Of a stretch of DNA of 64,000 nt, positions 53,948 to 56,448 are shown one piece after another. The translations under genes were made by a program, and so were the position numbers. Each line of letters begins with the position of its first letter. Within the stretch, counting starts at the first letter, position 1. A model generated the notes under the pieces. The model was given only the letters and a program-made list of their open reading frames with translations. It searched no databases and was not told where the DNA came from. The DNA is from Natranaeroarchaeum aerophilus. Lineage in GTDB: Archaea > Halobacteriota > Halobacteria > Halobacteriales > Natronoarchaeaceae. Location of the stretch: contig NZ_JAKRVY010000001.1 in assembly GCF_023638055.1 (NCBI RefSeq), forward strand, positions 689,815-753,814. The letters run 5' to 3'.

Positions 53948-55300
53948 CTACACCGGATCGTCGACCAGCTGATCGATCGTTCGCAGCCTGACGTTCGTCG
54001 GGCGTTTCGTGAACTCGCCGAGCGACGCCGACACCGTCTGAGTGACGCCTCGCTGGGCGGCCAGATCAAGCAGTCGCTGGGTGAGCGGTCCGTCGAGCAC
54101 GAGTGCAGTCGGCGTCTCTTCTGTCCTGTCGAGTAGTTCGAACGCCTCCGAGACCGCCTCTTCGGCGACAATGTCGCACTCGTCGTCGAGTAGTCGGACG
54201 AGGGCGTTTCCGGCGACGGCGCTCGCGTGGCCCTGGATCGTCTCTGGCTGGGTTGCACCGTCGTCCGCCGCATCGTCTACTGGCTCCTCGCTCGCGTCGG
54301 CGTTGGCATCTGCCTCCGACATCGTGTCACTGTCGGCCGATTTGGCAACTGCGTCGTCGCTTTCTACCGCTGTGGTATCGGGTTCCGGATCGATTGTAGT
54401 CGCTGGCCGGTTCTCGCCGCCGTCCGTCCCGTCGTTCGTCGGTGCCGGACTGGCACTCCCGTCCGTCGCCGCAACGGCTGTGCGCGGGGCAGTGGCGTCC
54501 TTGACGACGGTGTAGGGTACTTTCTCGCGGAGCGCCTCGAACACATCGTCTCTGGAGAGGTCCTCGACGGACTTGCCGTCCGGCGCGAACGTGACGTAGT
54601 CGATATCACCGACCTGACTGAACTCCTTGAGTATCAGGTCGCCACCGCGGTCGCCGTCGAGAAAGACGGTCGTCGTGCGCTCGTTCGACAGCGCCGCGAC
54701 CGACTCGGGAATGTCGGTTCCTTCGACCGCGATGGCGTTTTTGACGCCGTACTGCAGCAGCGTCAGGACGTCTGAGCGTCCCTCAACGACGATGATCGCA
54801 TCGCTATCCGCGACGCGTGGCCCGGCGGGCAACCCCTCGTGCTCGGTAATATCGGCGACCCGGACCTGCTGGCGGACCTCGTCGAGGATGCGCTGGCTGG
54901 AGCCGGTCGTCTCGTCGAACGCCTCGACGAACAGCTCCTGGGCGCGCTCGATCACCTCTCGGCGTTTGGCCGCGCGGACGTCCTCGATGTTCGTCACTTC
55001 GAGGTCCGCGCGACAGGGCCCGATCCGGGTGAGTGTCTCCAGTGCCGCTGCGAGCGTCGCCGTCTCGACCTTGTCGAGGCTGGTCGCAATCGTTACAGTT
55101 CCGTGCGTCTCGCCGCCCGTGGAGTCGATTTCGACGTCGATGCGACCAACTTTCGAGGACTGCTGTAAGCTTCGCAGATCGAGCTCGTCGCCCAGCAGTC
55201 CCTCGGTCTGCCCGAAGATCGCACCGACGACGTCACTGCGTTCGACCACCCCGCTGGCGATGACGTCGGCGTGAATGAGATATTTCGTGGTGTCGTCCAT
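53948..55300 (-). CDS. dnaG: DNA primase DnaG, archaeal type
   Basis: 450 residues. The TOPRIM motif I-I-V-V-E-G-R-S-D-V-L is followed by F-L-D-G-D-R-G-G-D. A 120-residue low-complexity acidic linker (about 270-390) lies before the conserved C-terminal region L-A-Q-R-G-V-T-Q-T. Archaeal DnaG also serves the RNA exosome. The gene is alone on the minus strand, with a TATA box (TTATATA, 55364-55370). Confidence 0.95.
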   Translation of the reverse strand: MDDTTKYLIHADVIASGVVERSDVVGAIFGQTEGLLGDELDLRSLQQSSKVGRIDVEIDSTGGETHGTVTIATSLDKVETATLAAALETLTRIGPCRADLEVTNIEDVRAAKRREVIERAQELFVEAFDETTGSSQRILDEVRQQVRVADITEHEGLPAGPRVADSDAIIVVEGRSDVLTLLQYGVKNAIAVEGTDIPESVAALSNERTTTVFLDGDRGGDLILKEFSQVGDIDYVTFAPDGKSVEDLSRDDVFEALREKVPYTVVKDATAPRTAVAATDGSASPAPTNDGTDGGENRPATTIDPEPDTTAVESDDAVAKSADSDTMSEADANADASEEPVDDAADDGATQPETIQGHASAVAGNALVRLLDDECDIVAEEAVSEAFELLDRTEETPTALVLDGPLTQRLLDLAAQRGVTQTVSASLGEFTKRPTNVRLRTIDQLVDDPV

Positions 55301-55362
55301 TGATGATCTGCCCCGGTGTGGGGCGTGAGTGTGATGTGCCCATGATGATCGCCATGGAACAG

Positions 55363-55370
55363 TTTATATA
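55363..55370 (-). promoter_or_regulatory. TATA box of dnaG
   Basis: TTTATATA on the + strand gives TATATAAA on the coding strand, 63 bp upstream of the dnaG ATG. An array of half-sites starts 79 bp further up. Confidence 0.55.
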
Positions 55371-55448
55371 CGAGTTCGGCGGCCCAAATAGCTGTCGTCA
55401 CGCCCTCGTACAGCCCACAGATGGTGGTAATCGCCGCTTTGCTCGCTA

Positions 55449-55557
55449 ACTACATATCTCGAAGTGATTCACTACAATTTTCGAAGTATAATACTACAGA
55501 GAATGAACCGTTACACTACAATTTCTGTAGTTTACACTACGACATCTGTTGTCTTAT
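55449..55557. repeat. Array of ACTACA half-sites with 22-bp spacing
   Basis: ACTACA starts at 55449, 55471, 55493 and 55515 and ACTACG at 55536: spacings of 22, 22, 22 and 21 bp. In each unit the second half, after five bases, reads CGAAGT, CGAAGT, TGAACC, TGTAGT or TGTTGT, so most units are imperfect palindromes. The fourth (ACTACA-N5-TGTAGT) is perfect. It lies between dnaG and the 3' end of the sugar isomerase gene. Confidence 0.7.
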
Positions 55558-56294
55558 CGCGCCTGATGCGGATCCTGCAAGACGGCATCGGCGGTCGCCA
55601 GCGAGGCGAGTGGATCCTCGGGATGGTCGTGCTCGAACAGCAACCACTCGACGCCAGCGTCGCGTGCCGCGTCGACGCAGGCCGGAATATCGAGCACGCC
55701 GTCGCCGAGGTCCGTTGGCTCGCCCTCGGCGGTGACGTCTTTGAGGTGGACGAGCGGGATCCGATCGCTGTACTGGTCAAGCAGGTCGACGGGATCCCGA
55801 CCGGCGGCCTCGGCCCAGCCCAAATCCAGTTCGAAGCCGACCGATTCGTCGGTCTCCTCGACGAGCAGGTCGAAGGCTGCCATGGCGTCCGTGTCGGCTG
55901 GCGTGACGAACTCGTGGTCATGATTATGATAGAGCAGGCGGCAGTCGTGCTCGTCGAGCGCGTCGGCGAGTGAGTCGAGCCGCGCTGCCGTCTCCGTCAC
56001 CGCTTCGCGGTCCACGAAGTGTGATTCGTCGAGATACGGGACGATGACTGTCGCGCAGTCGAGCGCGCGGCAGGCGTCGGCGACCGCTCCGGGATCGCGT
56101 TCGATCTCTTCGGCCTGTACGTGTGCCCCGGCCATAGTGAGTTCAGCCGCCGATAGCGCCGCCTGCAGGCCGTCCGCGCTCGGGACGCCTGCGAACTCGA
56201 CGCCATCGAGCGACGTCTCGCCAACGGCCGAAAGCTGATCGGGAAGCGACGCGTCGAGTTCGCGCAACGTGTACAGCTGAATACCAGTCTGCAT
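55554..56294 (-). CDS. Sugar phosphate isomerase/epimerase family (AP endonuclease 2 fold)
   Basis: 246 residues from ATG 56294. The TIM-barrel metal ligands are visible: L-L-Y-H-N-H-D-H-E-F, G-F-E-L-D-L-G-W-A, L-V-H-L-K-D-V and a late E in F-E-H-D-H. It begins M-Q-T-G-I-Q-L-Y-T-L-R, typical of myo-inosose/hydroxypyruvate-isomerase-like enzymes. The substrate is not known. Divergent from the DUF3311/SSS genes. Confidence 0.88.
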   Translation of the reverse strand: MQTGIQLYTLRELDASLPDQLSAVGETSLDGVEFAGVPSADGLQAALSAAELTMAGAHVQAEEIERDPGAVADACRALDCATVIVPYLDESHFVDREAVTETAARLDSLADALDEHDCRLLYHNHDHEFVTPADTDAMAAFDLLVEETDESVGFELDLGWAEAAGRDPVDLLDQYSDRIPLVHLKDVTAEGEPTDLGDGVLDIPACVDAARDAGVEWLLFEHDHPEDPLASLATADAVLQDPHQAR

Positions 56295-56448
56295 GTCCTC
56301 CACTCGGACGCCGACTGTGAAAAAGCTCGGCGTCGGTTTCGGATCGCCGGGAGGGGAATCATCGGTTTCAGCTCGCCCAAAGCGGGATCGTCGGCGATCC
56401 AACACGATGCGACAGGCCTTACCATCCCCGGACCTCACTCACTGACAA

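Follow-up and report, generated by a model that had tools for sequence, protein, structure and literature searches.

Upstream of the DNA primase gene dnaG of Natranaeroarchaeum aerophilus lies a short array of repeated half-sites, which raises the question of whether it serves dnaG or has a wider role on the chromosome. The window analyzed here is a stretch of 64,000 nucleotides from this genome (G000), and coordinates without a prefix refer to it.

The array at dnaG

Five 17-bp units span positions 55449-55552. ACTACA occurs at 55449, 55471, 55493 and 55515, and ACTACG at 55536, in steps of 22, 22, 22 and 21 bp, as described in the first-pass annotation. All units read on the plus strand. Unit 1 is ACTACA-TATCT-CGAAGT (55449..55465), with a near-identical unit in the sister species G033 (G033:C1:2593926), and unit 2 is ACTACA-ATTTT-CGAAGT (55471..55487), identical in G033. 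The sequence of unit 3, ACTACA-GAGAA-TGAACC (55493..55509), has a degenerate right half. Unit 4, ACTACA-ATTTC-TGTAGT (55515..55531), is the perfect palindrome noted earlier, and its G033 counterpart reads ACTTCA-ATTTC-TGTAGT. Unit 5, ACTACG-ACATC-TGTTGT (55536..55552), starts 21 bp after unit 4. Matching right halves had been listed at an offset of 11 bases for most units, and these hold for units 1, 2, 4 and 5, leaving unit 3 as the exception. The AT-rich character of the array was also borne out, with a G+C content of 34% at 55450-55549 against 60–70% in most of the surroundings.

The array stands far above chance expectation. The pattern ACTWCR-N5-YGWAGT matched three times in the window (0.07 expected), and ACTACR at 22-bp spacing also three times (0.01 expected); in each case none of 100 shuffles reached three. 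Both tests by which the first-pass annotation proposed to refute the array, namely absence of a motif excess over shuffled sequence and loss of the spacing in close relatives, thus turned out in its favor: the window counts far exceeded the controls, and the spacing is kept in G033.

Both flanking genes lie on the minus strand. The gene dnaG (53948..55300; NCBIfam NF003108, 538 bits) faces the array with its 5′ end, about 149 bp away, confirming the upstream position. On the other side is an open reading frame resembling sugar isomerases/epimerases (55554..56303; partial, weak match to TIGR04379), whose start codon is uncertain (56303 or 56438). The array had been thought to run into the 3′ end of this gene. 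In fact the last unit ends at 55552, one base before the stop codon at 55554-55556.

Between the array and dnaG, a probable dnaG TATA box (TATATAAA, 55363..55370, minus strand) was found, and other genomes of the family have a TATA-like sequence in the corresponding position. A second element (TGACGACAGCTATTTG, 55385..55400, minus strand) is separate from the array; it is varied but kept in nine family genomes, and it persists in family genomes without the array. Across 55300-55400 (minus strand; loci L149-L157) the upstream element has the form TGACGACAGSTATTTG in two relatives as well as in this genus, and is looser elsewhere. Together with the TATA-like sequence and with a leader whose end lies near GGGCAGATCAYCAATG, it is varied but conserved in the nine family genomes; the region is possibly a regulated leader or promoter.

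In seven genomes from the family's other two genera, no array was detected upstream of dnaG, where the isomerase gene usually still precedes dnaG and the core promoter is kept. A dnaG-specific operator was therefore rejected. Because the array is absent from these genera, and because similar arrays adjoin many unrelated genes, a specific link to dnaG is unsupported. In one genome of a related genus (G179, 400 kb examined) no AT-rich 22-bp arrays with another motif were seen either.

Dispersal of the arrays

Combined pattern and profile searches, on which the locus counts rest, gave about 46 array loci in the 3.29-Mb genome of N. aerophilus and about 40 in the complete 3.04-Mb chromosome of G033, i.e. 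one array of two to six units per 72–76 kb in this genus. The 17-bp pattern matched 66 times in G000, compared to four matches for the reversed control, and three half-sites in register were found 40 times in G000 and 27 times in G033, compared to none for the control in either genome. In G000, 180 kb of background sequence contained no array. The strict 22-bp phasing is seen again at dozens of loci and has been conserved, which lends good support to the early description of a multi-site binding platform on one helix face, taken here as a platform for protein.

Iteron arrays at plasmid origins repeat roughly every 22 bp, contain shorter recognition units and mostly run head to tail, and the arrays described here share these features. 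An iteron or replication-origin function, which had been considered for the dnaG array, is nevertheless unlikely, because the genome has about 46 short, scattered arrays (G033 about 40) and not a single one at an origin. On the G033 chromosome the 40 loci showed random spacing, with no directional bias (p = 0.46) and no even spacing. Neither a domain pattern nor an origin/terminus pattern was apparent, which counts against the chromosome-wide reading favored below.

Among 394 haloarchaeal genomes, a four-half-site pattern matched only in G000, G033, G284 and G310. A two-unit profile additionally detected arrays in members of the genera g27 (G045, G175, G284), g49 (G120, G310, G314) and g58 (G138, G248), all three from another family. 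In this class-wide run the array counts per genome are "at least" figures, and weak single matches elsewhere (e.g. in G244) may be due to chance. In the loci fetched from these genera the arrays are intergenic too. Array loci are common to genomes within a genus, and no convincing case of a locus shared between genera was found. Literature searches on the motif, or on dispersed haloarchaeal arrays, returned no matches. At one contig end in G284 (L142:46-215), about seven 22-bp units follow each other in almost perfect repetition, which makes this array far more regular than the others.

A candidate binding protein and the relation to promoters

The HxlR family (PF01638) consists of winged-helix proteins, with dimeric DNA-binding members. 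Several lines of evidence connect this family with the motif. When 84,980 species, each represented by one genome, were scanned with the DNA pattern, the motif turned up in proteobacteria, and at eight bacterial loci, retrieved by the DNA pattern only, the sites adjoin a gene for a PF01638 protein. In N. aerophilus, an HxlR gene lies downstream of one array region (L015:1943-2356 = G000:C1:810445-810855; PF01638, 48 bits). It encodes 137 amino acids, and both the orthologue and the upstream site are present in G033. Among 18 HxlR homologues from other haloarchaeal genomes, some of which are orthologues of each other, eight have a strict site within 230 bp upstream; the count for other genes is six of 1063 (Fisher p about 3e-12). 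The site-bearing haloarchaeal proteins, including the G000 and G033 candidates, form one supported group in the tree, and the remaining haloarchaeal HxlR groups have no sites. Furthermore, arrays and HxlR promoters agree in their variants: in g49 both carry ACTTCG/ACTTTG and no ACTAC, and in g1 both carry ACTACA/ACTTCG. The layout of the arrays, with inverted, dimer-sized half-sites in units repeated in a fixed register, is that expected of operators of this family. It resembles the operators of HxlR, YodB, CatR and QsrR (MarR/DUF24), where inverted half-sites are bound by a dimeric winged-helix protein, in a comparison of layout and not of letters. Taken together, these observations make it quite likely that the arrays are HxlR-type sites.

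The protein encoded at G000:C1:810445-810855 (G033 orthologue at 2517661-2518071) is the most likely binder on this sequence evidence. Two further HxlR paralogues are encoded in G000, at C10:8248 and C1:802970. Which paralogue would occupy the arrays is uncertain, because the promoter of the candidate also bears a site whose spacer is 6 bp long, and because G160 and G129, two genomes without detected arrays, encode close homologues (63–65% identity); the presence of the protein alone does not, therefore, predict arrays. The 6-bp-spacer site is ACTTCG-N6-CGAAGT in G000 and ACTTTG-N6-CAAAGT in G033 (loci L254 and L255), a matching change on both sides that suggests a selected palindrome. YodB is a homodimer with a thiol switch (PMC8063818). 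Such a switch is not expected here, since the candidate has no cysteine.

The characterized HxlR-family regulators act at a few promoters. In contrast, the haloarchaeal sites form dozens of multi-unit arrays over the chromosome, regardless of promoters. All of the first 36 arrays analyzed were intergenic. The surroundings of 69 arrays from both species, which are not all independent as the two species share most loci, were co-directional in 37, divergent in 18 and convergent in 14 cases (0.54/0.26/0.20). These fractions agree with a random placement that leaves out genes and the 50 bp preceding start codons (0.51/0.26/0.23). Since the gene calls came from a simple codon-usage finder, single start codons may be misplaced.

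The main rival to an architectural role is a broad HxlR regulon, in which the arrays would be conventional operators of a global transcription factor, the window array controlling dnaG and the others their neighbors. The match between the motif and the autoregulatory HxlR sites fits this explanation, as does the position of 35 arrays, out of 55 faced by a start codon, at 50–92 bp from the nearest one. Some arrays are indeed located 50–90 bp ahead of starts, a position from which an activator could work, and this counts against an architectural role. The peak disappeared, however, once the 50 bp before starts were simply excluded (p = 0.28), and activating sites at a fixed distance from the start codon were rejected. 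The arrays are neither concentrated upstream of genes nor rare between convergent genes, the 14 convergent cases being about as many as random placement predicts, and the core promoter of dnaG is retained without the array in other genera. The flanking genes identified (by NCBIfam, others by eye; part of all neighbors) include those for dnaG, RFC small subunit 2, malate dehydrogenase, citrate synthase, SRP54, PEP carboxylase, hisF and glyA; among this annotated part no functional theme was apparent. Overall, control of the neighboring genes by a global HxlR regulator is considered unlikely, and the indifference of the arrays to promoters points instead to a function on the scale of the chromosome.

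DUF7522 genes adjoin or neighbor arrays at L023, L041 and L142, in two unrelated lineages. The occurrence of DUF7522/DUF5813 genes beside arrays in two lineages was judged coincidental, and no DNA-binding domain was matched in them.

It is improbable that an unrelated protein, e.g. of the ribbon-helix-helix or SegB-like type, recognizes a similar half-site. The 11-bp phasing of half-sites would also suit ribbon-helix-helix proteins, and RHH_1 proteins were present in 15 of 15 genomes tested, but as they occur with and without arrays they do not discriminate, whereas the motif adjoins HxlR genes in two domains of life. A ParB/parS or Noc system was rejected, as no ParB_N protein was found in six array-bearing genomes (G000, G033, G045, G284, G138 and G248).

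Unit structure, conservation and possible role

The consensus unit is ACTACA-N4-TCGAAGT, usually combining one ACTAC half with one ACTTC half. Across the sites from 69 arrays, the unlike halves ACTACA and ACTTCG(A) are joined inversely, and 138 of 179 units are of the mixed ACTAC/ACTTC type; random joining of halves would give about half. The step from unit to unit is 22 bp in 98 of 112 cases, 21 bp in eight and 44 bp in six. Adjacent asymmetric units mostly run head to tail (same direction 47, opposite 15). The arrays open with ACT and close with AGT, and only one of the 69 has an extra terminal half-site, indicating that the module is a 17-bp pseudo-palindrome with a 5-bp linker and not a run of single half-sites.

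Most of the G033 arrays examined, the counterpart of the window array among them, occupy the same intergenic slot as an array in G000, between orthologous genes with a median protein identity of about 92%. The fraction of shared loci is not free of bias, since the sites were picked in G000 and the regions of G033 were taken around that species' own arrays. In 21 aligned array pairs, identity was 87.6% in half-sites, 74.6% in inner spacers and 60.5% in linkers, which suggests that the half-sites are under selection while the linkers drift. Whole 22-bp units have been gained or lost between some pairs (e.g. L017 compared to L122).

Such gain and loss of tandem 22-bp units, together with the near-perfect seven-unit array in G284, would fit selfish or mutational short repeats (tandem or mobile) without function. 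This origin is nevertheless very hard to reconcile with half-sites conserved above their linkers, with arrays that keep their loci between two species, and with units that outside the half-sites are mostly not copies of one another, within or between arrays. RNA elements, i.e. terminator or processing hairpins, can practically be dismissed: the units are imperfect inverted repeats and many lie near gene ends, but most join unlike halves so that full pairing is impossible, arrays also occur between divergent genes, no Rfam match was obtained, and hairpin pairing across halves fell below 500 of 500 shuffles, which argues for protein-DNA recognition rather than RNA.

The evidence from the sequences leans somewhat towards helically phased HxlR-type operators with a chromosome-wide and probably architectural role in a few haloarchaeal lineages. 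One HxlR dimer would bind each 17-bp unit, and as the 22-bp repeat corresponds to two helical turns, successive dimers would be placed on one face of the DNA and may bind cooperatively. The bound arrays could then form nucleoprotein nodes about every 72–76 kb that mark or organize the chromosome. Being clear of core promoters and indifferent to gene direction, they would act chromosome-wide rather than switch dnaG or any other single gene.

Three site sets are comparable to the arrays in logic, although they differ in motif and placement. SegB of the Sulfolobales, a ribbon-helix-helix protein, binds 13-bp TCTAGA-S-TCTAGA sites, about 83% of which lie inside genes (PMC12284271). Like the arrays, these are dozens of palindromic sites spread over an archaeal chromosome and untied to gene function (PMC12284271), but the arrays are tandem, intergenic and of the form ACTWCR-N5-YGWAGT, a different motif. 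The bacterial nucleoid-occlusion proteins Noc (about 70) and SlmA (24–52) also have dispersed palindromic sites, which are under-represented in the terminus region, and both proteins use the chromosome as a template (PMC4726725). The arrays resemble these sets in their dispersal. They appear to differ from them in the random spacing seen in G033, and ParB_N proteins, the family of Noc, are absent from G000 and G033.

A more far-reaching proposal, made here tentatively, is that an HxlR protein, elsewhere a local regulator responding to stress or metabolites, may have become a factor for chromosome organization, segregation or division control in some haloarchaea, with the phased, promoter-independent arrays as its anchors. 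In that case the arrays would illustrate how the operator of a local regulator could spread over a chromosome. Haloarchaea carry many chromosome copies, and the arrays bear on how these are organized and segregated. One possible mechanism is directly testable, now that about 46 sites are mapped, a candidate binder is named and a closely related species is available for comparison. A DNA motif is also provided for an HxlR subfamily in archaea and proteobacteria.

Array-like repeats were also seen further afield. A viral contig (L218:5360-5490; 32% G+C), with no haloarchaeal link, contains repeated ACTACTACGGTTTCCGTAGTA units in an array-like layout. In the Bacteroidetes metagenome-assembled genome RUG11139, four contigs (L045, L047, L050 and L055) carry near-perfect 22-bp tandem repeats of ACTACA-N5-TGTAGT with a constant linker.
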